Source of the DNA: a virus
Reading direction: 5' to 3' (one strand)
Virus record (IMG/VR): IMGVR_UViG_3300046535_000998
Coordinates: 1-39,771 of that record
Length of the DNA: 39,771 nt
How positions within the stretch are numbered: the stretch's first letter is position 1; each line of letters opens with the position of its first letter. Made by a program: the position numbers and the translations under genes. Shown here one piece after another: positions 7,173-39,771 of this stretch. The notes under the pieces are model-generated. The model was not told where the DNA came from. It made no database searches and saw only the letters and a program-made list of their open reading frames with translations.

Positions 7173-7196
7173 GCAGTAGGGAAATTTCCGTGCAGC
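7173..7196. promoter_or_regulatory. Operator-like palindrome, copy 2
   Basis: Left half matches the perfect copy (GCAGTAGGGAAATTTCC); right arm diverges (GTGCAGC). It fills the 45-base gap between two late genes and carries no obvious promoter, fitting a stoperator-like role. Confidence 0.6.
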
Positions 7197-7663
7197 TAGA
7201 TACGCTGACGGCACTGGATTTCGACGGCGGCAGACGCCACGCGGCCGGAATGCGCGTCATCCCACATGACCTCTTGCGTGTGGCTGATAGGGCGAGCCAC
7301 GATGACCGCACCACCGAGCGTCGGATCGCTGCGCACAACGGAAATCGCAACGTCGACCAGGTCAGCACAGCGCGCGTAAGCGGCCTGCGGGTCGTCCCCG
7401 CCCCGGTACACCTCAACCTGAATTTCTACGGTGTACTGCTCGTCCAGCCAGCCGGCCCCGCCGGATCCGACAAGGGAACTGACGCCCAACTGCCGCGCCA
7501 CCTTGCCCACAGTCACAATGTCCTCGGGCTGATCAGGGCCGGGCTCGTCATAACAGACCAGCAGGCTCGCGGACTTGTCGAACATGTCCGGGGTCATGGC
7601 AGCGGTTAGGGCCTGAAACAGGTACGCCCGGACGGCCGTGGTCGTAGATACGGGAATGGTCAT
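7196..7663 (-). CDS. Tail terminator-like protein
   Basis: 155 residues from ATG 7663, overlapping the upstream connector stop as TGATG; a longer frame to 7699 is rejected for that reason. Content: AVRAYLFQALTAAM, then DEQYTVEIQVEVYRGGDDPQAAYARCADLVDVAISVVRSDPTLGG, a pattern seen in small tail terminator/minor tail proteins that cap the tail tube at the neck. Its place between connector and tube is right for that role. Confidence 0.6.
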   Translation of the reverse strand: MTIPVSTTTAVRAYLFQALTAAMTPDMFDKSASLLVCYDEPGPDQPEDIVTVGKVARQLGVSSLVGSGGAGWLDEQYTVEIQVEVYRGGDDPQAAYARCADLVDVAISVVRSDPTLGGAVIVARPISHTQEVMWDDAHSGRVASAAVEIQCRQRI

Positions 7664-10213: not shown

Positions 10214-10921
10214 TTACTCCTTACCAGTGCGGAAATTTCCGCGCTGCGGGTTGGCTAGTAGGCGCATGCGCGCGTTGAACATGGAAAGGTCGACCGGGGC
10301 CGGCGGTAGGCCCTCAAGTTCCCGAATCTGATTGGGAGTGAGGAACCCCTCGCGCGCCAGAATGGCGAGGTCCAGGCCCCGCAGCGTCGCCCCCGCCGTA
10401 GCGGGATTCGCGCCGTAATTGACCGCGCTTACATCGCCCTTATTTAGGTCGACCTCGGTAATGTCGCGCTGCGTCCAGTCGGGCGACCAGACCTGAGACG
10501 TGACCCGAAATCCGAAACTCATTTCGTCAATGTCGCCCCGGTCCATCGCACTTCGTAGGCTCTGCACGTCCGGCGAGGCCGGATCTAGGTCCGCCTCCAC
10601 CAGCAGCCCTACAGAGTCCTCGGCGAGGCGCATAGTGCCGCTCTTAGTGCGAGCGAGCGTCAGGCCCGCGTGATTCACCTTGAACGGCACATCGGCGCCG
10701 TCGGCGAGCGTCCGCGTGAACGCCCCTCGGCGGATCACCTCGGTATAGTCGCCCAGGAAATCGCACATTTCGTACGGGGATTCAGTCACCGACGCATAGC
10801 CGGTAAACGTGAAAGTCTCGCCGCCCGTACCGTTCGGCACCCCGCGCATTTCCATGTCCCGGAAGTTTGCGCGCCGCTCTACCGAGGCCGTCTGACGACC
10901 CCGGATTGATAGATCATTCAT
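10214..10921 (-). CDS. HK97-type prohead protease
   Basis: 235 residues; ATG 10921 overlaps the portal stop as TAATG. Peptidase U35 features: FTGYASV...YEMCDFLGDYTEVIRRGAFTRTL, the catalytic His in FKVNHAGLTLAR, the catalytic Ser in DEMSFGFRV, and DVSAVNYGANPAT near the C-terminus. It matures the capsid by removing the N-terminal scaffold domain. An operator-like palindrome lies inside its last codons (RGNFR). Confidence 0.92.
   Translation of the reverse strand: MNDLSIRGRQTASVERRANFRDMEMRGVPNGTGGETFTFTGYASVTESPYEMCDFLGDYTEVIRRGAFTRTLADGADVPFKVNHAGLTLARTKSGTMRLAEDSVGLLVEADLDPASPDVQSLRSAMDRGDIDEMSFGFRVTSQVWSPDWTQRDITEVDLNKGDVSAVNYGANPATAGATLRGLDLAILAREGFLTPNQIRELEGLPPAPVDLSMFNARMRLLANPQRGNFRTGKE
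10224..10247. promoter_or_regulatory. Operator-like palindrome, copy 3
   Basis: Core CGGAAATTTCCG with partly symmetric flanks (AGTG / CGCT). It is inside the protease reading frame, just before the capsid gene start. Confidence 0.5.
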
Positions 10922-12334: not shown

Positions 12335-13858
12335 TTAAAGGTCAGCCCAACTGAAAAATTGGGGAGTCGGTTCGGGCTCGGGCTCAAAACACGCCCGCTC
12401 CAGGCCCATCACTGCGGAAATCGCGAGGTCGATTTTCCGAGGGGAACCCTTCGCATCCTTGGACAGGCGCGAACCGCGCGCATCCGTGCGAATAACGCAA
12501 TTCGACAGGTGCCGCGCCAGGCGCGGATCCCCGGAATGCGTGAGGGTTTTGTTCATAACCGCTTCGTAGAAACGGGTGGTCGCCGGAATCATTCGGGCCG
12601 GAGACTGCGGGAACTCGACCACGGGTAGGCCCTCGGATTCGAGCACCTGATACGTGCGGGCCCAGCGGAACGGGTCACAGACAATCTCGCGAACCTGCCA
12701 GCGTCGGCAGGCTGCCCGGATTTCGTCCTCAACGTTCACAATGGGAACGGTCCAGTCATTGCCGGACCCCGTCGGCTTTTCCCAAGCGGCCACAACGTCG
12801 ACATGCGGCAGCAGGGAAATTTCCCCGTTGCTGGTCGGGCACGCCACAACCACCAGGGCCGTTGAGTCGTTCGAAAACGAGCCGTCGAAACCCAAAACAA
12901 CGTCTGCGCCGTCTGGAATCTCGACCTCGGGCGCCGCACAGTCGTCCCATGCGCCGGCCGGTAGCCAAGCCTGCGCCGTGGACACCCACTGATTAAGGCG
13001 CTTCGTACGGAATTCCGCCTCGGGGGTGCGGAGCACAGCGGAATGGAAATCGTCCGCCGAGACAATGTCCCCGTAACCGGGATTCGCAGCAGCCCAAACC
13101 TCGGGGTCGCGATGGTCGGCACCCTCGGGCGCGCCCCACCACTCAAAGTAGAAAGTCGGGTCGTCCAGCTCGCCGGAAACGAGCTTGCACCCGTACTGAT
13201 ACATGCCGTAACACAGGGAATCCTGACCGGTGCTGTCTGACTTGACACCCGCAGTCGTGATCCCGACTAGCAGAGGTTCCGTACGGGCACCGGTGGCGAG
13301 GGCCATAACGTCCCATAGCTCACGGTTTGGCTGCGCGTGGACCTCATCGAAAAGGACGAGATGCGGATTTAGACCTTCTTTGGTAAAGGCCTCGGCGGAC
13401 AGAACCCGATAGACGGATCCGGTCGCCGGAAGTTCAATTGCGTCTCGGTACGTCTTGAACATTCCGCCGAATTGCGGCTCTAGTTCAATCATCTTTTTAG
13501 CCGTACCGAACACAATTCGCGCCTGCTCTTTATCCGCAGCGCACGAGAAAACCTCGCCACCGCGCGGACCGAACGCGAGGCCGAAAAGCGCAATGCCAGC
13601 GCCTAGGGCCGACTTGCCGTTTTTACGGGGAACGCCGATTAGGGCCTGGCGATGCTTGAGCCGGCCATCGGTCCGACGGGCGAGCAAACGCCCCATCATT
13701 CCGGTCTGCCAATCGCGCATGACCATCGGTTCACCGGCGGAACCGCCGACGGAATCCTTAGTCACCCGGAGAAACTGAGTGAAATCACCGAATCCGTCAC
13801 CGTCACCACCCACCACCGAGGCAGGGTCGACATGCGAAAGGAACAGCGGGCCGGTCAT
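12335..13858 (-). CDS. terL: Terminase large subunit
   Basis: 507 residues; ATG 13858 overlaps the small subunit stop. ATPase: Walker A GVPRKNGKSA at ~75-84, Walker B HLVLFDEVHA at ~166-175, coupling motif near LLVGITTAGVKSD. Nuclease domain begins around DVVLGFDGSFSNDSTALVV, with EIVCDPFRW and DLAISAVMGLERA further on. It pumps DNA into the prohead and cuts it. An operator-like palindrome lies within the nuclease domain coding sequence (NGEISLLPH). Confidence 0.95.
   Translation of the reverse strand: MTGPLFLSHVDPASVVGGDGDGFGDFTQFLRVTKDSVGGSAGEPMVMRDWQTGMMGRLLARRTDGRLKHRQALIGVPRKNGKSALGAGIALFGLAFGPRGGEVFSCAADKEQARIVFGTAKKMIELEPQFGGMFKTYRDAIELPATGSVYRVLSAEAFTKEGLNPHLVLFDEVHAQPNRELWDVMALATGARTEPLLVGITTAGVKSDSTGQDSLCYGMYQYGCKLVSGELDDPTFYFEWWGAPEGADHRDPEVWAAANPGYGDIVSADDFHSAVLRTPEAEFRTKRLNQWVSTAQAWLPAGAWDDCAAPEVEIPDGADVVLGFDGSFSNDSTALVVVACPTSNGEISLLPHVDVVAAWEKPTGSGNDWTVPIVNVEDEIRAACRRWQVREIVCDPFRWARTYQVLESEGLPVVEFPQSPARMIPATTRFYEAVMNKTLTHSGDPRLARHLSNCVIRTDARGSRLSKDAKGSPRKIDLAISAVMGLERACFEPEPEPTPQFFSWADL
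12808..12831. promoter_or_regulatory. Operator-like palindrome, copy 4 (inside terL)
   Basis: Core GGGAAATTTCCC with flanks GGCAGCA / CGTTGCT. Retention of the full 12-base core within a coding sequence argues for selection on the DNA site. Confidence 0.6.
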
Positions 13859-15504: not shown

Positions 15505-15528
15505 GCAGTAGGGAAATTTCCCTACTGC
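15505..15528. promoter_or_regulatory. Operator-like palindrome, copy 5 (perfect)
   Basis: A perfect 24-base palindrome: GCAGTA, then GGGAAATTTCCC, then TACTGC. It lies between the last tRNA gene and HNH 2, so a bound repressor could block the tRNA-to-late read-through. Confidence 0.75.
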
Positions 15529-15535
15529 AAACAGG

Positions 15536-15609
15536 TAGTCGCCGGGGGATTCGAACCCACCACTAATACGCTCCTAAGGCGCATGCCTCTACCGTTGGGC
15601 TAGGCGACC
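15536..15609 (-). tRNA. tRNA-Leu(TAG)-like
   Basis: Acceptor GGTCGCC with partner GGCGACT, T8/A9, D arm around GCCCAACGGTAGAGGC, anticodon stem TGCGC/GCGTA, loop CTTAGGA giving TAG, T loop TTCGAAT with one stem mismatch. It lacks the long variable arm expected of leucine tRNAs, so charging identity is uncertain. It would read CTA codons, which the late genes use often for this GC level. Confidence 0.7.
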
Positions 15610-15648
15610 AGGGCCCTACCCGCCATGTTCGATGGTTGGTAAGGCTCG

Positions 15649-15720
15649 CTGCGGGGGCAGGGATCGAACCTGCGCACGTCGGATTAACAATCCGGTGCTC
15701 TGCCGCTGAGCTACCCCGCA
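15649..15720 (-). tRNA. tRNA-Asn(GTT)
   Basis: Acceptor TGCGGGG/CCCCGCA, D arm GCTC...GAGC, loop TTGTTAA giving anticodon GTT, T arm GCAGG-TTCGATC-CCTGC. All arms form. Confidence 0.9.
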
Positions 15721-15724
15721 AAAG

Positions 15725-15797
15725 TTGGCCCGGTCGGATTTGAACCGACGACATCCGGCATGTAAGGCCGGCGCTCTCTCCACTGAGCTACGCGCCA
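15725..15797 (-). tRNA. tRNA-Val(TAC)
   Basis: Acceptor TGGCGCG with partner CGGGCCA (one mismatch), anticodon stem CCGGC/GCCGG, loop CTTACAT giving TAC, T arm GTCGG-TTCAAAT-CCGAC. Reads GTA codons. Confidence 0.88.
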
Positions 15798-15830
15798 TGA
15801 ATCCCCCGAGTAAGCGACGGGGCCGCTAAG

Positions 15831-15903
15831 TGCTTCGCTCAGGACTCGAACCTGAAACCTACGGGGAATGAGCCCGCCGCTCTACCGATTGAGCTAGCGA
15901 AGT
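15831..15903 (-). tRNA. tRNA-Met(CAT)
   Basis: Acceptor ACTTCGC with GCGAAGC (first pair A-C), D arm GCTC...GAGC, anticodon stem GCGGG/CCCGT, loop CTCATTC giving CAT, T arm TCAGG-TTCGAGT-CCTGA. Could be elongator Met or a lysidine-modified Ile tRNA. Confidence 0.82.
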
Positions 15904-15947
15904 AAAACCGCGACTACGGGCGCGGACCGGGTGACGAGTTTAGAAAT

Positions 15948-15970
15948 AGGACTCTTGCACCATGAGTCCT
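15948..15970 (-). other. Hairpin in the tRNA spacer
   Basis: Arms AGGACTC and GAGTCCT around a 9-base loop, in the 69-base spacer between two tRNA genes. Possibly an RNA processing signal. Confidence 0.4.
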
Positions 15971-15972
15971 AG

Positions 15973-16043
15973 GCCGCGCAACGGGATTTGAACCCGCGAC
16001 CTCCGGCTGTGCCACCGGTGCTCTACCGCTGAGCTACGCGCAG
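15973..16043 (-). tRNA. tRNA with irregular anticodon arm (identity undetermined)
   Basis: Acceptor CTGCGCG/TGCGCGG pairs well with two G-T wobbles; D arm GCTC-AGCGGTA-GAGC and T arm GCGGG-TTCAAAT-CCCGT are normal. The anticodon arm CCGG-TGGCACAG-CCGG gives four pairs with an 8-base loop, or five pairs with a T-G closing pair and a 6-base loop; no register gives a 7-base loop with T33. The anticodon cannot be assigned. Confidence 0.6.
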
Positions 16044-16109
16044 CATCGGCAGTTTTACAGGACTGCCCAACCCGAGCGGCATTTTTATATCGGACCCCCG
16101 CTAGAGTCC

Positions 16110-16185
16110 TGGCGTCTCCCACGGGATTTGAACCCGTACCCTCTCGCGTGACAGGCGAGCGCTCTAACCGTTGAGCTAGAAAGAC
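16110..16185 (-). tRNA. tRNA-Asp(GTC)
   Basis: Acceptor GTCTTTC/GGGAGAC, anticodon stem CTCGC/GCGAG, loop CTGTCAC giving GTC, T arm ACGGG-TTCAAAT-CCCGT. The 3' CCA appears to be encoded (GCCA after the acceptor). Confidence 0.92.
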
Positions 16186-16191
16186 AAGTGT

Positions 16192-16262
16192 CATCGGGTG
16201 ACGGAGTCGAACCGCCATTTCTCGATTTACAGTCGAGCGACTTGCCGTTAGTCGAACCCTCC
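16192..16262 (-). tRNA. tRNA-Tyr(GTA)-like with weak acceptor stem
   Basis: Anticodon stem CTCGA/TCGAG perfect, loop CTGTAAA giving GTA, T arm GGCGG-TTCGACT-CCGTC. Only about four of seven acceptor pairs form (GGAGGGT against ACCCGAT), and the D region reads GACT-AACGGCA-AGTC. Possibly decaying or edited. Confidence 0.65.
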
Positions 16263-16264
16263 GG

Positions 16265-16338
16265 AGCCCCCACTAGGATTCGAACCTAGGACCGCCGGTT
16301 TACGAAACCGGAGCTCTGACCATCTGAGCTATAAGGGC
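16265..16338 (-). tRNA. tRNA-Thr(CGT)
   Basis: Acceptor GCCCTTA/TGGGGGC, D arm GCTC...GAGC, anticodon stem CCGGT/ACCGG, loop TTCGTAA giving CGT, T arm CTAGG-TTCGAAT-CCTAG. First gene of the tRNA operon. Confidence 0.92.
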
Positions 16339-16456: not shown

Positions 16457-16474
16457 GAGAACCCAAGGCATTCC
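16457..16474 (-). promoter_or_regulatory. Phage promoter motif 1 (tRNA/late operon)
   Basis: Minus strand GGAAT-GCCTT-GGGTTCTC. It lies 119 bases ahead of tRNA-Thr, with no stop or terminator before the late genes other than tRNAs, so it could drive the tRNA and late operon. Confidence 0.65.
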
Positions 16475-16496: not shown

Positions 16497-16592
16497 GGTG
16501 TCGAGTTACGTTGGCGAGGTGTTTTTGAGTTTGCTATAGGTATTTTACTCACGTACAAACTAGAAATAGAGAGAGAACCGACACTCGACACC
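16497..16592 (-). repeat. 96-base repeat, copy A
   Basis: Matches 35479-35574 at about 84 of 96 positions with no gaps. Ends are the inverted repeat GGTGTCGAGT / ACTCGACACC; the interior is AT-rich on a GC-rich background. Minus strand carries CGGTTCTC (half of the phage promoter motif) near its start, and a full motif lies 23 bases further downstream, exactly as in copy B. Confidence 0.9.
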
Positions 16593-20193: not shown

Positions 20194-20237
20194 AACGCTA
20201 TGCATGCGGGCAGTGACGCGAGTACGTTTGCAGGTGC

Positions 20238-21473: not shown

Positions 21474-21699
21474 GGGGTGACTGCCCAATCGTTGCAACGT
21501 ATGTACTGCTTGCGGTGGGTTGAACTCTACACGCGTCGATTGGCCGAGTATGTCCGATTACTGCCCAGTAGACTACACACGGTGACGGATGGCTGTCCCG
21601 GTATGTCCGTTTATGGGCGGCAGTGAGGCAGCCGGCTACGTGTCGGCGGTCACTCTCCGGGGTTACGAGTCACCGTTTCTAAAGTTCCGGTAACAACAC
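21474..21699. other. Non-coding gap at the junction of lysogeny and early regions
   Basis: Holds two copies of GTATGTCCG followed by AT-rich bases (21548 and 21601) and a TACTG-CC-CAGTA dyad. Promoters may lie here, but no convincing hexamer pair can be named. Confidence 0.35.
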
Positions 21700-21726
21700 A
21701 GAAAGGCCCCCACCGAAGCGAGGGCC
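21700..21726 (-). terminator. Terminator of the early operon end
   Basis: Minus-strand GGCCCTCGC-TTCG-GTGGGGGCC followed by TTTCTG, just after the 21734 stop. Confidence 0.8.
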
Positions 21727-21733
21727 GTAACTG

Positions 21734-21973
21734 TTAGGAATCTTTACTGTCTGCTAGCCGTTTCTCGAATGCGTCTGTCTCATCCCATCCGGCGACCACG
21801 TCCGCGAGCGATGCGACTAGCTCTCTCACAACGGCCTCGGGCAGGATCACCTCAACCGGCATGCCGGTAGCCGTGCGGGCCTTGACTGCGACCCGCCGAG
21901 GGCCGAGGGTGCGGGCCGTCCAAGTGCCCCCGCGCGCTGCCAGGCTCACAATCGCTTTCCAAGTGTCGGCCAT
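21734..21973 (-). CDS. Hypothetical early protein
   Basis: 79 residues, ATG with GGGGG upstream. ADTWKAIVSLAARGGTWTARTLGPRRVAVKARTATGMPVEVILPEAVVRELVASLADVVAGWDE: beta-strands then a helix, ending in an acidic tail. The layout (short beta part then VVRELVASL helix) recalls the small early protein at 24156. Function unknown. Confidence 0.65.
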   Translation of the reverse strand: MADTWKAIVSLAARGGTWTARTLGPRRVAVKARTATGMPVEVILPEAVVRELVASLADVVAGWDETDAFEKRLADSKDS

Positions 21974-22638: not shown

Positions 22639-22676
22639 TGCCTTGCCTTCCGTTCGTTCCTGCTGACGAGAGAGAC

Positions 22677-22704
22677 GTTATCGGCGTTTGTGACACCCGC
22701 GCAA
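22677..22704 (-). promoter_or_regulatory. Early promoter of cassette 1
   Basis: Minus strand TTGCGC-N16-GATAAC, with the palindrome copy 6 ending four bases upstream of the -35. The sequence between the hexamers is identical to that in cassette 2. Confidence 0.65.
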
Positions 22705-22707
22705 GTA

Positions 22708-22731
22708 GCAACGGGGAAATTTCCCTGTTGC
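22708..22731. promoter_or_regulatory. Operator-like palindrome, copy 6
   Basis: GCAACG-GGGAAATTTCCC-TGTTGC, adjacent to a -35 hexamer, the usual place for a repressor site. Confidence 0.75.
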
Positions 22732-22740
22732 TCGGACAGC

Positions 22741-22761
22741 AAAAAGGCCCCCGTAGGGGCC
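22741..22761 (-). terminator. Terminator
   Basis: Minus strand GGCCCCTACGGGGGCC then TTTTT, 19 bases past the 22780 stop. Confidence 0.85.
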
Positions 22762-23190: not shown

Positions 23191-23228
23191 GTCCACTCCC
23201 CTTGTTCGTTCCTGCTGACACGACAGAC

Positions 23229-23256
23229 GTTATCGGCGTTTGTGACACCCGCGCAA
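23229..23256 (-). promoter_or_regulatory. Early promoter of cassette 2
   Basis: TTGCGC-N16-GATAAC, with palindrome copy 7 just upstream and a leader (CAGCAGGAACGAAC) shared with cassette 1. Confidence 0.65.
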
Positions 23257-23259
23257 GTA

Positions 23260-23283
23260 GCAACAGGGAAATTTCCCCGCTGC
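23260..23283. promoter_or_regulatory. Operator-like palindrome, copy 7
   Basis: GCAACA-GGGAAATTTCCC-CGCTGC next to the cassette 2 -35. Confidence 0.75.
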
Positions 23284-23292
23284 TCGGACAGC

Positions 23293-23318
23293 AAAAAACC
23301 CCCGCCGAGGCGGGGGCC
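23293..23318 (-). terminator. Terminator
   Basis: GGCCCCCGCC-TC-GGCGGGGG then TTTTTT after the 23335 gene. Confidence 0.88.
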
Positions 23319-23739: not shown

Positions 23740-23777
23740 GGTGTCGCCCTTCCGTTCGTTCTACTGACACCGCAGAC

Positions 23778-23805
23778 ATTAGGGCCGAATGTGACACGGG
23801 CGCAA
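23778..23805 (-). promoter_or_regulatory. Early promoter of cassette 3
   Basis: TTGCGC-N16-CCTAAT, again next to a palindrome (copy 8), with a diverged spacer. Confidence 0.6.
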
Positions 23806-23808
23806 GTA

Positions 23809-23832
23809 GCAACAGGGAAATTTCCTAGTTGC
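23809..23832. promoter_or_regulatory. Operator-like palindrome, copy 8
   Basis: GCAACA-GGGAAATTTCCT-AGTTGC; it overlaps the 3' end of the 23825 gene. Confidence 0.7.
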
Positions 23833-24046
23833 TCAGGTACGGCGGTTCGGCACTCTCGGCGAAGTGTGCCCGCAGGCCGGCCAGTAGAGCGCGGGCCGCA
23901 TCCTCGGTGAGCTGCACCGACGACCAGGACCAATCGTCGCCGTCCCGGTGCCCGGTAATCGTGACGCTCGGCACCCCACCGCCGGTCACCGACGGGCAGA
24001 AATGCACCGAGTTGCACAGCACCGTGTAGTTACGCGCCCGGTCCAT
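23825..24046 (-). CDS. Hypothetical early protein
   Basis: 73 residues from ATG 24046 (AAAGGTGG upstream); a longer frame from 24085 would run through the palindrome. RNYTVLCNSVHFCPSVTGGGVPSVTITGHRDGDDWSWSSVQLTEDAARALLAGLRAHF: beta strands followed by a helix. The end SAEPPYLSN is encoded over operator copy 8. Function unknown. Confidence 0.62.
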   Translation of the reverse strand: MDRARNYTVLCNSVHFCPSVTGGGVPSVTITGHRDGDDWSWSSVQLTEDAARALLAGLRAHFAESAEPPYLSN

Positions 24047-24064: not shown

Positions 24065-24088
24065 GCAATAGGGAAATTTCCGCACTGC
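24065..24088. promoter_or_regulatory. Operator-like palindrome, copy 9
   Basis: GCAATA-GGGAAATTTCCG-CACTGC, 19 bases before the 24046 start, overlapping where transcription or translation would begin. Confidence 0.7.
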
Positions 24089-24096
24089 AAGGTAAC

Positions 24097-24622: not shown

Positions 24623-25438
24623 TTAGGCTGCTGCACCCTTGAGGTAAAGCTCACGGAACCGCACGCGGCCCTTAGTGCGGGCCTGCTGCACCTGGTACGT
24701 GCTCAGGCCCATGTCCTCGGCCATTTCCCCATCGGCCTCGCCCACCTGGTCGCCGTAGTAGCGAACATCGCCGATGGCGTAGTCCTGCCGCAGGACGGTT
24801 CCCATGCGGGAACTCAGCTTGTCGAGCGTGCCGTGTACGCGGTCACGGATGACCCTTTGGCGGTGCGTCTCTACGTCCCGCTCGGTCAACAGGTCCTCGG
24901 GGATGCCGAGGGATCCGGCGATCAGTTCGCCGACGGTCACAGTCGCCCCGGCCTCGCCCGACACGGGGACGTCAAGGGAATCGGTACCCTGCCACGCCAT
25001 GCGGGCCGCGTAGGCACCCTCTCGGCTCATCTTGCGGTCACCCATGGCCGCAGCGTCCTGCGCGACCTTTTCGGCCTCGTACGGGTCACCGCCGGCGAGG
25101 GCGATAGCCGTCTCGAAATCGGCCGCCGCACGGCGCGAAACGCCCTGGCGCGTCTCCGACTTGCGCGTGTTCGCCATGACGCCCCGGAGGGTTACGTCAA
25201 TGAACTCTGCGAACTGTGCCACGTCCGTTCCCTTGAAACGGTCGATTGCTTCCCAGACTGCAATCCGTCCGGTCTGCGCGAGGTCCTCGGCGAGGTCCGC
25301 ATCAAACCGGCTGCCGAGGGTAGCCGCCTGATTGGCAAGGAACGTCACTCGCGCCTCGGTCGCGGTGATCACAGCGGTTACGGCCTCAAGATCGTTGAGC
25401 TTTGCGTCTACGATCTGCTGCTCGGTCAGCTCAAGCAT
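24623..25438 (-). CDS. Sigma-70-like RNA polymerase sigma factor
   Basis: 271 residues from ATG 25438 (AGGGG eight bases upstream; the longer frame would start inside a promoter motif). Residues ~47-92 (DADLAEDLAQTGRIAVWEAIDRFKGTDVAQFAEFIDVTLRGVM) follow sigma region 2, the -10 binding and core-contact part. Residues ~203-262 (GTLDKLSSRMGTVLRQDY... GEMAEDMGLSTYQVQQARTKGRVRFREL) follow region 4 with its helix-turn-helix. The linker is longer than in ECF factors and region 1.1 is absent. It would redirect host polymerase to phage promoters. Phage promoter motif 2 precedes its own gene. A distant or inactive homologue remains possible. Confidence 0.75.
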   Translation of the reverse strand: MLELTEQQIVDAKLNDLEAVTAVITATEARVTFLANQAATLGSRFDADLAEDLAQTGRIAVWEAIDRFKGTDVAQFAEFIDVTLRGVMANTRKSETRQGVSRRAAADFETAIALAGGDPYEAEKVAQDAAAMGDRKMSREGAYAARMAWQGTDSLDVPVSGEAGATVTVGELIAGSLGIPEDLLTERDVETHRQRVIRDRVHGTLDKLSSRMGTVLRQDYAIGDVRYYGDQVGEADGEMAEDMGLSTYQVQQARTKGRVRFRELYLKGAAA

Positions 25439-25471
25439 CGAAAACCCCTGTTCTTCGGTGTCTGTGAGGGA

Positions 25472-25489
25472 GAGAACCCAAGGAATTCC
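25472..25489 (-). promoter_or_regulatory. Phage promoter motif 2 (sigma-like gene)
   Basis: GGAAT-TCCTT-GGGTTCTC, ending 34 bases before the sigma-like start. Confidence 0.7.
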
Positions 25490-25795
25490 CGGTTTCCGTC
25501 CTCGCACAGACGTGACCGGGGTGGTGCTAGGGGTGGGGCTGATCAGTGCCGTTCGCCGTTGCTGCGAGGAACTTACGTCGCATACGTATGCAGATCAATG
25601 GGTTTGCAAACCTGACAACCAATCAGGCTCGCGATCGTTACCCTTCGAACCCAAGGCATGCCACCGCCTACACCTTGAGGATGACGGGAACCGGCCCCCG
25701 TGACATACCCGTTACCGAGCATCCGAAGGCCGATCCCCGCACATCGCGAGTCTGATTACTGATCAGTACGTCCAGAAACCTTTACTTGCACGTGA

Positions 25796-25819
25796 CCAAC
25801 AGGGAAATTTCCCTACTGC
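25796..25819. promoter_or_regulatory. Operator-like palindrome, copy 10
   Basis: CCAACA-GGGAAATTTCCC-TACTGC, between the polymerase stop and the palindrome-rich hub. Confidence 0.7.
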
Positions 25820-25847
25820 TCGCGTGACCGGACGGACACGCTCCGTA

Positions 25848-27768: not shown

Positions 27769-30207
27769 CTACTTGGCGAAAATGCCGGGGCCGGCTGCGA
27801 TTGCCTCGGGTGCCGCAATGCGCACACCGACCAGGGCGATACCGGTCTTGACCCGCTTACGCGTCACGCCGCGTTCTTCCATGGCGCCGTAAAACGTGCG
27901 GCGCGTCCAACGCTCTTTGTTCGGCAGATTCTCTGCCTCGCACCAATCCAGATACGCCGAGAAAGCGGCGTTGCCGTTGATCACGTCGTCCTCGGTGCCG
28001 CGCTCCATCACGCCCGGATAGAAACCGGCGAGGGTGTCCGACGTTTCCCGGTACTCCCTGCCCGCCCGCACAATGACCGCCGGATCCTGCAAGCCACCCT
28101 CGTACCATTCGGCAGCGCCACGGACGGCCCAAGCGGCAATGCCCTCGGCCTCGGCGAGCAACTTCCGGTCAAGGTCGTAATCCCGCTCGTCCGGCGCAAA
28201 CCACCGGGTAAACGGAATCAACTTCACTCGGCGCCACAAACCCTCGTCCTGGCCCTTAAACCTCGGCTTGTGATTGGTCGCGAGCAGCAGCAGGAACGAC
28301 GGCCGGAACTCGAAAAACTCTTGGTGCAGGAATCGGGCGCTGATCATGTCCTTACCGGTGATCCGCTTCAAAACGGCCTCGTTCATCGGCTTACCGGACT
28401 CACCCTCGGACGCCATGACCAGACGCGAACCCCGCAGCGCTGCAACGTCGTTGGGGATCCCGCCGCCGGAACGCTCCTCGAACGTGGCGAAACCGGTCGT
28501 CTTAGTGATGTTGCGGAGGACGGCCGTAAGGGTGTCGGTCAGAACCGATTTCCCGTTCGCTCCCTTGCCCCACAACACAGCGAAAGACTGCTCGGACGTG
28601 TGGCCGGTGATCCCGTAGCCAATCAGCCGGCGCATGTACGGCGGCAGTTCGGGATTGCCCGGGAAAATCTCGGACATGAAAGCGTCCCATCGGGGGCACT
28701 TGGCGTTCGGGTTGTAATTCACGTCAAGGCAATCCGTCAGCATGTCCGCCGGATCGTGGGGGCGCATCTTCCCGGTGCGCAGGTCGACCGTGCCGTTACG
28801 GAAATTCAGCAGGTCCGGGCGGGCGTCGAAATCGGCAACGTCCACATGCACGGACGGCACCGACTGCAATTCGGTGAGCAGGGCGTTAATGCGCGAGGTC
28901 ATCGTGAACCCGCGCGCAGACTTGATATCGCCGGAGAGGACCAGAGCGGCCCCCATGCGGTGAATTTCCTGCCGAACCTTGACCGTCGAGCGCTCCCAAA
29001 CGCGCCCGTTCCACACGTGAAACCCGAGGCCCGGTGCAAACCGAATGAACCCGCCGCACCATGCGACCAGGGCGTGTGCGTTCATCGCGTCGGATTCGCC
29101 GTACCGGTCGGTGAGCCCTGCCAGCACGCGTGCAGCCTCGCGGCCCTGGTCGCGGGACACCATGTCGGCCCCGGTCCGGCCGGACAGTTCGGCGGACACT
29201 GCCTCGGCCTCGGCCTCGGCCTGGTCGACCACGGGACGGGCGTTCTTCACGGCAGCGTGCAGCGAGGCGGGGAAAGCCTGCGGGTCGCGGGCCCGCCAAT
29301 CGGTCAAGTCGTCCCCAGTGGTGGGGATTTGCAGCGTGAAAACGTCGATGCCGTGCGCCTTGAGCGCGTCCGCCAGGCGCCGAGTGAACCCCTGCCCTGC
29401 GGTGTCGTTGTCCCCGCACACGATCACGTGCGACCCGCGCAGGCCGGCTGCCAGCTCCTCCACAACTTCCGGAACGGCAGCGAGCGAGGCACCCCGCACG
29501 GCAACGGCGTCATACCCCACAGAAACCGCTGTGAGTGCGTCTCCCGGGCCCTCGGTGACCAGGACGGCCCCATACCCAGCCTGCCCCCGGAAAACGCCGT
29601 ACTGTGCCCACCGCTGCCCGTCCGGGTTGGCAAGGGAAAGCCACCGCCCGGGGCACTCGCCGGAAAGGTCGCGACCCTGCAAGCCACGTGCCACGCCCCG
29701 GAAATCCCGGAGCGGAACAGTCAGCCTCGGGTACTTACGGAATGCCGTGGAACGGCCCTTCCCGAGCGAGGAATCGTCACGGCCGGAGTCGTACCCGAGC
29801 ATGAGATCCGCAGCGAGGTCCCCCGAGATACCGAAACGGTCGGCGGCATACTGGCGGGCACGTGCGGCACCCTCGCTCACGAACGAGTGCAGATGCATCG
29901 CCGAGGCGTCAACGTACATGGCGAGAGCGGCAGTTAGGCCGGGGCCGACCATCACGGGGCGTTCCTTGGGCACGGTGTTGCCCTCGCCCTCGGCGTCGAA
30001 AAGGTCAGCCCAGTTGAGCCGAGCAGCCTTGCGCACGTCGTCAGTTGCACAGCCGGCCCGACACGTGAGCCGCACTTTGTTGTCATCCCCGCGCCAAATG
30101 CGAAGGGACGGACGGGAATCCCCGTGCGCGGGACACAGCGCGAGGTATCCGCCGTCCGCCTCCTCGGTCACCTGCGAAAACCGGGCGAGCACATCAGAGA
30201 AAATCAC
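27769..30207 (-). CDS. Primase-helicase (P4-alpha/D5 type)
   Basis: 812 residues from GTG 30207, AAAGGAAAA upstream. Zinc finger at ~25-55 (LCPAHGDSRPSLRIW... CRAGCATDDV), Toprim-like core (AVLVTEGPGDALTAVSVGYDAVAVRG, VIVCGDNDTAGQGFTRRLADAL), then a D5/SF3 helicase: SFAVLWGKGANGKSVLTDTL (Walker A), RLVMASEGESGKPMNEAVLKRITGKDMISARFL, SFLLLLATNHKPRF (sensor). It primes and unwinds DNA at the fork. Similar two-domain proteins occur in phiC31-like phages. Confidence 0.95.
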   Translation of the reverse strand: MIFSDVLARFSQVTEEADGGYLALCPAHGDSRPSLRIWRGDDNKVRLTCRAGCATDDVRKAARLNWADLFDAEGEGNTVPKERPVMVGPGLTAALAMYVDASAMHLHSFVSEGAARARQYAADRFGISGDLAADLMLGYDSGRDDSSLGKGRSTAFRKYPRLTVPLRDFRGVARGLQGRDLSGECPGRWLSLANPDGQRWAQYGVFRGQAGYGAVLVTEGPGDALTAVSVGYDAVAVRGASLAAVPEVVEELAAGLRGSHVIVCGDNDTAGQGFTRRLADALKAHGIDVFTLQIPTTGDDLTDWRARDPQAFPASLHAAVKNARPVVDQAEAEAEAVSAELSGRTGADMVSRDQGREAARVLAGLTDRYGESDAMNAHALVAWCGGFIRFAPGLGFHVWNGRVWERSTVKVRQEIHRMGAALVLSGDIKSARGFTMTSRINALLTELQSVPSVHVDVADFDARPDLLNFRNGTVDLRTGKMRPHDPADMLTDCLDVNYNPNAKCPRWDAFMSEIFPGNPELPPYMRRLIGYGITGHTSEQSFAVLWGKGANGKSVLTDTLTAVLRNITKTTGFATFEERSGGGIPNDVAALRGSRLVMASEGESGKPMNEAVLKRITGKDMISARFLHQEFFEFRPSFLLLLATNHKPRFKGQDEGLWRRVKLIPFTRWFAPDERDYDLDRKLLAEAEGIAAWAVRGAAEWYEGGLQDPAVIVRAGREYRETSDTLAGFYPGVMERGTEDDVINGNAAFSAYLDWCEAENLPNKERWTRRTFYGAMEERGVTRKRVKTGIALVGVRIAAPEAIAAGPGIFAK

Positions 30208-30231: not shown

Positions 30232-30249
30232 GAGAACCCGGGAAATTCC
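30232..30249 (-). promoter_or_regulatory. Phage promoter motif 3 (primase-helicase)
   Basis: GGAAT-TTCCC-GGGTTCTC ending 25 bases before the GTG start. Confidence 0.7.
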
Positions 30250-32811: not shown

Positions 32812-32829
32812 GAGAACCCAGCAGATTCC
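32812..32829 (-). promoter_or_regulatory. Phage promoter motif 4 (directionality factor)
   Basis: GGAAT-CTGCT-GGGTTCTC ending 47 bases before the ATG. Confidence 0.7.
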
Positions 32830-33385: not shown

Positions 33386-33403
33386 GAGAACCCGCCAAAT
33401 TCC
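33386..33403 (-). promoter_or_regulatory. Phage promoter motif 5
   Basis: GGAAT-TTGGC-GGGTTCTC, touching the endolysin stop and ending 39 bases before the 33347 start. Confidence 0.7.
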
Positions 33404-35450: not shown

Positions 35451-35468
35451 GAGAACCCACGACGTTCC
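35451..35468 (-). promoter_or_regulatory. Phage promoter motif 6 (nuclease operon)
   Basis: GGAAC-GTCGT-GGGTTCTC ending 36 bases before the nuclease start. Confidence 0.68.
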
Positions 35469-35478
35469 CAGCAGGCCG

Positions 35479-35574
35479 GGTGTCGAGTTACGTTGGCGAG
35501 GTGTTTTTGGGTTTGGCTTAGGTATTTTTCTCACGCACAAACTCAAAAACAGGAGAGAACCGACACTCGACACC
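35479..35574 (-). repeat. 96-base repeat, copy B
   Basis: Gap-free partner of 16497-16592, with the same inverted ends and internal CGGTTCTC; motif 6 begins 11 bases beyond it on the minus strand, and motif 1 begins 23 beyond copy A. Confidence 0.9.
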
Positions 35575-35678: not shown

Positions 35679-35897
35679 CTAGGGGGCCTGCGAGGGTTGT
35701 TCCGTAACCTTGTAAGAGAACCCCTTGAATTCCAGAGGCTCACCGGTGACCAGGCGGGCAACCGTCTTGTCCTCGGCCTCGGTCCATCCGGCGAATTTCA
35801 GCAGGATGAACAACTGACGTGCCGCGTTGTCCGCTGTGTCTGTGGTGCGACCCTCGGGTTCGGGATCCCCTAAACGCTGCGCCGTTGCCTTGAACAT
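35679..35897 (-). CDS. Hypothetical early protein
   Basis: 72 residues from ATG 35897 (AGAGGAGC upstream). FKATAQRLGDPEPEGRTTDTADNAARQLFILLKFAGWTEAEDKTVARLVTGEPLEFKGFSYKV. Helical with a conserved-looking Trp; small acidic early protein of unknown role. Confidence 0.65.
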   Translation of the reverse strand: MFKATAQRLGDPEPEGRTTDTADNAARQLFILLKFAGWTEAEDKTVARLVTGEPLEFKGFSYKVTEQPSQAP

Positions 35898-37249: not shown

Positions 37250-37273
37250 CCAACGGGGAAATTTCCCTACTGC
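37250..37273. promoter_or_regulatory. Operator-like palindrome, copy 11
   Basis: CCAACG-GGGAAATTTCCC-TACTGC, beside the leftmost-transcribed early promoter. Confidence 0.75.
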
Positions 37274-37279
37274 GAACGC

Positions 37280-37305
37280 AAAAAGCCCCCGCCGGAGCGG
37301 GGGCC
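37280..37305 (-). terminator. Terminator of the lysis/kinase operon
   Basis: GCCCCCGC-TCCG-GCGGGGGC then TTTTT. Confidence 0.88.
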
Positions 37306-38152: not shown

Positions 38153-38170
38153 GAGAACCCGCCGGATTCT
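38153..38170 (-). promoter_or_regulatory. Phage promoter motif 7 (holin and kinase)
   Basis: AGAAT-CCGGC-GGGTTCTC, ending 39 bases before the holin-like start and touching the upstream stop. Confidence 0.68.
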
Positions 38171-38959: not shown

Positions 38960-39771
38960 TTAGTAGCTGAATGCGGCGCCGTCGAACTTCGCCGAGCTGT
39001 CCCACGTGGCCGCGTTCGTGACACCGCCGGGCAGCGCCTCGGAAACGGGCGCGCCGGCCGCGTGTGCCTTTGCGAAAGTGCCCACAATCGACAGGGAACC
39101 GGCCGACCATCCGGCCGTTGTGACACCGGGCGCCTTCACCGTCACGGTTTCCGCATTGGCCGTACCGGCGTCCACCAGGAGCACCGTCCCCGCGCTGATC
39201 TGACCGGCCAGCACGCCCGTATTTCCGTCGGTCGGGGCGTTGATATAGAACGCGCCATCGCCCACAGTCACGGCGGCATTGACGGTCGTGTGGAATGCGG
39301 AAATCAGCCCGTACGGCGTCGGGTCGACCGGGGAGAGCTGCAACGTCAAGAACGCCTCGTTCTGGTCGTCTAGCGACCAATCCAAGTGCTCCACGAACAG
39401 GTCAAGCTGAATCGCAGGTGCCGCGCCCGCTCGGCGCATGACCCGCACGCGGGTACCGATCTCCAGCGCAAGGCAGACAGGCCACAGCGAGGGCGTACCG
39501 CCGGGGTGCAGCTTGAGGCCGGTAACGCGGACCTTGGGATCCTTGTAACGGCTCAGCAGGTAGCCGGCTGCCGCGCGGGCCTCGGTCGCGTCCGTGGTGT
39601 CGACGGTCCGGGACATTGAACGCGGGAAATAGGCCGCTTGGCTTGCCGCATCCGTGGCCGTGAACTTCTGGCCCGTACTGTCCTGCGTAACCTCAACGAC
39701 GTTCGCGAGGTGCGTCGAGTCGTAGTCGAGCGTCAGTTCCTCGTACGGGTATTCCCCGAGGTCGCCTCGCT
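38960..39771 (-). CDS. Minor tail protein (C-terminal part)
   Basis: In-frame continuation of the gene interrupted at the left edge; this segment overlaps that part by the 148-base end repeat. Contains WSLDDQNEAFLTLQLSPVDPTPYGLISAFHTT and a beta-rich tail (AVTVGDGAFYINAPTDGNTGVLAGQISAGTVLLVDAGTANAETVTVKAPG), then NAATWDSSAKFDGAAFSY. An internal ATG at 39616 is not the start. Confidence 0.82.
   Translation of the reverse strand, partial: RGDLGEYPYEELTLDYDSTHLANVVEVTQDSTGQKFTATDAASQAAYFPRSMSRTVDTTDATEARAAAGYLLSRYKDPKVRVTGLKLHPGGTPSLWPVCLALEIGTRVRVMRRAGAAPAIQLDLFVEHLDWSLDDQNEAFLTLQLSPVDPTPYGLISAFHTTVNAAVTVGDGAFYINAPTDGNTGVLAGQISAGTVLLVDAGTANAETVTVKAPGVTTAGWSAGSLSIVGTFAKAHAAGAPVSEALPGGVTNAATWDSSAKFDGAAFSY
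39624..39771. repeat. Right copy of 148-base end overlap
   Basis: Identical to 1-148 except T39750, which gives Tyr instead of Phe in the tail protein. Confidence 0.9.

Follow-up and report, generated by a model that had tools for sequence, protein, structure and literature searches.

The window analyzed here, the whole stretch of 39,771 nucleotides, is the record of a phiC31-type phage with its genes running on the minus strand, which corresponds to the forward direction. They encode the small and large terminase, the repressor c (Pfam Phage_Repressor_c), a gp1-like exonuclease, a primase-helicase, a polymerase, a sigma-like protein and a serine integrase, accompanied by tRNAs. Two copies of a 96-base element, designated A and B (Table 1), bracket the early genes; on the circular map, their separation is ~19 kb in one direction and 21 kb in the other. 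Their distances from the primase gene are about 5 kb and 11 kb. The ends of the record (1-148 and 39624-39771) share a direct repeat of 148 bases with 99% identity; consequently, the genome is probably complete, i.e., circularly closed or cos-joined. Eight tRNA genes cluster at 15534-16338 just downstream of copy B, and ARAGORN could not name the anticodon of the tRNA at 15972-16043.

The description of the two copies given in the original prediction was reproduced. Both are 96 bases long, differ at 12 of 96 positions (88% identity) and are AT-rich (44% and 48% G+C compared with 63.6% for the window). All 12 differences fall at element positions 32 to 74, while the terminal inverted repeat (GGTGTCGAGT/ACTCGACACC), CGGTTCTC and the contained GGTTCTC are free of differences. 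A search of the window's own record returned these two copies only, the second one at E = 4e-31. A blind scan for paired arms that are mutually inverted and contain internal repeats on either side of an AT-rich center ranked them first and second in the window, with none of 30 shuffled windows scoring as high. In general, each arm consists of two to three direct six-base iterons with a period of 7-9 bases, the two arms being mutually inverted; the iterons of the window read GTGTCGA-GTGTCGG. In the window copies, the second arm holds one clear and one degraded iteron, which counts against the reading as an origin developed below.

Table 1. Positions of the element copies, promoter-like motifs, primase-helicase domains and palindromes in the window
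Feature	Position	Strand	Remark
Copy A (gp1 side): two iterons, AT-rich center, inverted arm	35479..35574	-	gap between repressor/gp54-like genes and gp1 exonuclease
Iteron GTGTCGA, left arm of copy A	35567..35573	-	sequence; class TGTC
Iteron GTGTCGG, left arm of copy A, period 7	35560..35566	-	sequence
Inverted iteron GTGTCGA, right arm of copy A	35480..35486	+	sequence; degenerate GTTACGT next to it
AT-rich center of copy A, imperfect inner inverted repeat	35497..35558	.	58% A+T; proposed unwinding region
Copy B (int side), layout as copy A	16497..16592	-	between integrase gene and tRNA/terminase side
Iteron GTGTCGA, left arm of copy B	16585..16591	-	sequence
Iteron GTGTCGG, left arm of copy B, period 7	16578..16584	-	sequence
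Inverted iteron GTGTCGA, right arm of copy B	16498..16504	+	sequence
AT-rich center of copy B, imperfect inner inverted repeat	16515..16576	.	65% A+T
GGAAC-N5-GGGTTCTC	35451..35468	-	downstream of copy A, separate from element
GGAAT-N5-GGGTTCTC	16457..16474	-	downstream of copy B, separate from element
Remaining GGAAY-N5-GGGTTCTC motifs	25472-25489, 30232-30249, 32812-32829, 33386-33403, 35716-35733, 38153-38170	-	
Primase-helicase, P4-alpha/SaPI5-Rep-like (Toprim, D5_N, SF3 helicase)	27769..30207	-	proposed initiator
C-terminal winged-helix domain, about residues 722-800	27808..28044	-	like P4 origin-binding domain 1KA8
Beta-hairpin wing, residues 782-793	27829..27864	-	covarying R785 and I790
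GGGAAATTTCCC-core palindromes	2200-2230, 7173-7202, 10224-10253, 12808-12838, 15505-15535		
GGGAAATTTCCC-core palindromes, continued	22708-22738, 23260-23290, 24065-24095, 25796-25826, 37250-37280		

Promoter-like motifs next to the element

The element had been proposed to act as a tandem promoter, an enhancer or a protein-bound switch for both neighboring operons. In accordance with this proposal, a promoter-like motif, GGAAY-N5-GGGTTCTC, is present on the minus strand a few tens of bases downstream of each copy, and both copies contain GGTTCTC. The motif occurs eight times in the window (0.18 expected), always on the minus strand, and is absent from phiC31. However, the element accompanies two of these eight sites while six do without it, and the GGTTCTC within the element comes without the GGAAY-N5 half and so does not represent a further motif of this kind. 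At the position of GGTTCTC, relatives with other promoter motifs possess an iteron flank, e.g., GTGACGATTTAGACC or GTGACGTTCGAT. A role in transcription thus appears very improbable to us, also in view of the comparative data presented below. What persists from the original prediction is an element with a functional and protein-bound appearance; its promoter or enhancer part was not supported.

A divergent sigma-factor-like protein is encoded at 24623-25507 of the window (phrog_15865, with Sigma70_r2 just below the Pfam cut-off). This protein might recognize the GGAAY-N5-GGGTTCTC promoters.

Distribution of the element in the phiC31 family

A DNA-level search of phages with the 96-base element alone, as had been suggested together with the original prediction, yielded no match, and scanning viral contigs for patterns of the element ends or the inner sequence returned unrelated matches only. 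Such searches fail because the sequence changes too rapidly; the element is revealed only by its position combined with its architecture, and by these means it was recognized family-wide. Among 15 complete relatives (phages of Streptomyces, Arthrobacter, and Microbacterium, including phiC31), all 15 carry the pair, in each case at the two syntenic positions before gp1 and after int. The copies of phiC31 (21669-21768 and 40448-40547) are 76% alike; those of Shawty are located at 20203 and 39481. In nearly all of the relatives, the intergenic place upstream of gp1 was found to contain an imperfect palindrome of matching size. Shady represents the weakest pair by alignment (E 0.006), yet both of its copies are plain by eye, and in SASD1 and Dubu both copies were found although their arms are harder to classify.

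The element sequences differ between phages, and in each the iterons are inverted around an AT-rich center, whose inner inverted repeat likewise drifts in sequence among relatives. The iterons read GTGATGAA-GTGACGCT-GTGAC in phiC31, GTGTAGAA-GTGTAG in Rowa, GTGCAGTA-GTGCAG in RemusLoopin and GGGGACG in Honk. As a point against the reading as an origin, the arms of SASD1, Dubu, Attoomi, and Honk fall outside the five main iteron classes. The wider set comprised 142 loci with a primase gene, drawn from viral contigs and prophages (hosts being Streptomyces, Kitasatospora, Arthrobacter, Pseudarthrobacter, Herbiconiux, Promicromonospora, Actinopolymorpha, Micromonospora, Actinoplanes, and others) plus the window and references. 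Within it, a candidate element upstream of gp1 was obtained in 111 cases, and the iteron class was clear in 99.

This distribution bears on several explanations of the element. In the Arthrobacter phage KeAlii it is located upstream of the terminator preceding gp1, so that its order and distance relative to terminator and promoter are altered, and in the Microbacterium phage Honk one of the two copies is inverted; both arrangements argue against a transcription element. The same applies to those relatives in which no element was found before gp1, several of which keep the gp1 upstream region. A mobile, MITE-like repeat would explain the sharp ends at the terminal inverted repeats as well as the 88% identity of the copies. 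Such a common mobile repeat had been named as the finding that would speak against a function. It was not encountered: the flanks are devoid of target duplications, no matching copies were found elsewhere, and we rejected a mobile element based on the synteny of both sites in every complete relative despite deep divergence, leaving this explanation with a negligible probability. We likewise rejected a functional link of the element to the serine integrase, since phiSASD1 possesses a short integrase of 254 residues instead and keeps both copies.

Nested inverted repeats could fold if transcribed, and the element was consequently also considered as a structured RNA, i.e., a leader, an antitermination site or a small RNA. 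However, no Rfam match was obtained for the element, its arms are built from direct hexamer repeats, and the inversion of one Honk copy does not fit such a role. A-C mismatches exceeded G-T mismatches on one strand (137:64), and the swapped control gave a ratio of 2.28. As this control explains the strand asymmetry by base composition, the RNA reading was rejected and is regarded as highly unlikely.

Covariation of the iterons with the wing of the primase-helicase

The primase-helicase of the window comprises 812 residues and fuses a Toprim primase to a D5_N/SF3 helicase; the SaPI5 primase-helicase is among the closest of its solved relatives. For the C-terminal 133 residues, structure prediction gave a winged helix with a mean pLDDT of 80, in which the wing strands (residues 782-786 and 789-793) hold residues 785 and 790. 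Foldseek returned no significant match for this small model. VIA-align, among the chains compared, placed RFX DNA-binding domains first (Z 9.3-9.4), followed by the P4 origin-binding domain 1KA8 (Z 8.3, 76 of 100 residues, 2.3 A). By itself, the latter value shows a likeness of the predicted fold and not of function.

Mutual information between the iteron class and each of the 812 primase columns was calculated over 68 non-redundant loci, and the two top-ranking columns, residues 790 and 785, are both located in the wing. Lysine 785 is found in 45 of 50 TGAC loci and arginine 785 in all 16 TGTA, TGCA, and TGTC loci. Exceptions to this rule are the five remaining non-redundant TGAC loci, which have R785, as well as two loci with K785 but without a clear TGAC iteron (L101 and L160). 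On a tree built from primase residues 1-690 only, the iteron class changes 11 times. Eight independent pairs could be compared, residue 785 changing along with the iteron class in ~7.4 of them and in the opposite sense in none (p 0.008-0.03). The TGTA loci partly represent one clade, which counts against independence. Distant prophages of Actinopolymorpha (L184) and Promicromonospora (L186) combine R785/M790 with TGTA apart from the Streptomyces group showing the same combination.

Nearest-neighbor prediction of the iteron class was best with primase residues 766-796 (64 of 68), compared with 50 of 67 for the polymerase and 33 of 41 for the sigma-like protein. It was worst with gp1 (49 of 68), even though gp1 adjoins the element. 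Counting against a link specific to the wing, helicase residues 321-690 also performed well on the minority iteron classes (14 of 18). The most direct comparison is provided by loci L104 and L129, in which gp1 and the primase body are 94% identical and the C-terminus 65%, with TGTA iterons in the former and TGAC iterons in the latter, the second copy of L129 included. At the level of the sequences compared, the iterons track the primase C-terminus rather than gp1 or the sigma-like protein, which again argues against a transcription element.

Several loci were missed by the element finder, and the full contigs of five of these carried the element elsewhere, each with one strong element on the terminase side and no copy on the gp1 side. 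One of them (G007, with primase L085) has K785 and TGAC iterons, as predicted by the rule for residue 785. In the other four phages, a C-terminus and wing of the RVIKRAG type coincide with a new iteron class, CGGTG (primases L150, L151, L072, and L078; contigs G001, G002, G005, and G006; none before gp1). These contigs support the link between iterons and primase, and they show that two copies are not universal, some relatives appearing to have one.

The element as a putative replication origin

Taken together, we regard each 96-base copy as a putative iteron-type replication origin, or as one half of a two-part origin, bound by the primase-helicase, with a probability of roughly 0.8. Our observations comprise the conserved site pair with its architecture, the assignment of the helicase-primase, the P4-like fold of its C-terminus and the iteron-wing covariation; from these, we infer physical binding and melting of the elements and a start of replication there. 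In the proposed mechanism, the C-terminal winged helix would read the inverted GTGTCG iterons of both arms, mainly by residues 785 and 790 of its beta wing. The protein might then assemble head-to-head across the AT-rich center and melt it. Subsequently, the SF3 helicase ring would be loaded onto the single strands and the primase-helicase would prime synthesis.

Covariation reveals the partner of the element and not its function, and two copies about half a genome apart, each beside a promoter, could also be expected of a site bound by the primase-helicase for copy control, autoregulation, pausing or replication termination. We consider such a site without origin function unlikely, since the architecture matches an annotated replication region, the P4 crr, the AT-rich center is conserved despite sequence drift, and the single-copy phages retain exactly that one copy. 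Concerning nucleotide skews as markers of a putative origin, GC skew did not mark the sites in the phages compared. For AT skew, a turn close to the int-side copy was seen in many phages; this is confounded by the boundary of early and late genes at the same place.

Among known replicons, P4 with its ori, its crr and its alpha protein shows the closest parallels in organization that we describe here. In both systems, primase and SF3 helicase are fused in one protein, which ends in a winged-helix domain of the 1KA8 fold. The crr, the cis-required region for replication, likewise consists of short iterons, two direct followed by two inverted, around an AT-rich center (annotated in NC_001609 at 4314(+), 4323(+), 4366(-), and 4384(-); center 69% A+T). 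P4 has two separate cis regions, as do the window and its 15 relatives, the contigs of one subgroup having only one. Since the P4 iteron is TGTTCACC and those of phiC31-type phages are of the GTGTCG or GTGACG types, the element cannot be equated with the P4 origin itself, though it would function in a similar manner. Further differences are the tandem 120-bp repeat and larger ori of P4, compared with one unit of 90-110 bp per site here, and the near-identity of the two sites at a distance of ~19 kb, some relatives seeming to use one. In SaPI and SCCmec elements, a D5_N/SF3 initiator (SaPI Rep, Cch2) binds short iterons of the ori by its C-terminal domain (PMC7581432). Their origin is directly beside rep, in contrast to the duplicated element located ~5 and 11 kb from the primase gene.

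Our search of the open literature, with subscription papers outside its scope, found no description of this element or of a phiC31 replication origin. PhiC31 serves as the model phage of Streptomyces, and its serine integrase is widely used. The present reading would assign an origin with exact coordinates to this phage and to relatives from several actinobacterial genera, and it specifies the initiator domain along with two residues by which the choice of origin appears to be determined. Natural swaps such as L104/L129 make the specificity between initiator and origin directly testable. Tentatively, and at somewhat less than even odds, the whole actinophage family including phiC31 may use, for its replication, a duplicated origin pair that is spaced by about half a genome and brackets the early genes. 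The wing code (785, 790) would then set specificity, and repeated swapping of this code together with both origin copies would leave co-infecting relatives without shared origins.

A second class of repeated palindromic noncoding DNA is present within the same genomes. The operators of the phiC31 repressor are conserved inverted repeats; they differ from the 96-base element in sequence, copy number and location. The window contains ~10 copies of a palindrome of 24-30 bases with the core GGGAAATTTCCC or one close to it (Table 1), probably representing the operators of the phiC31-type repressor c. A probable operator palindrome is also part of a 100-base unit recurring with a period of ~550 bases at 22652-22751, 23204-23303, and 23753-23852.
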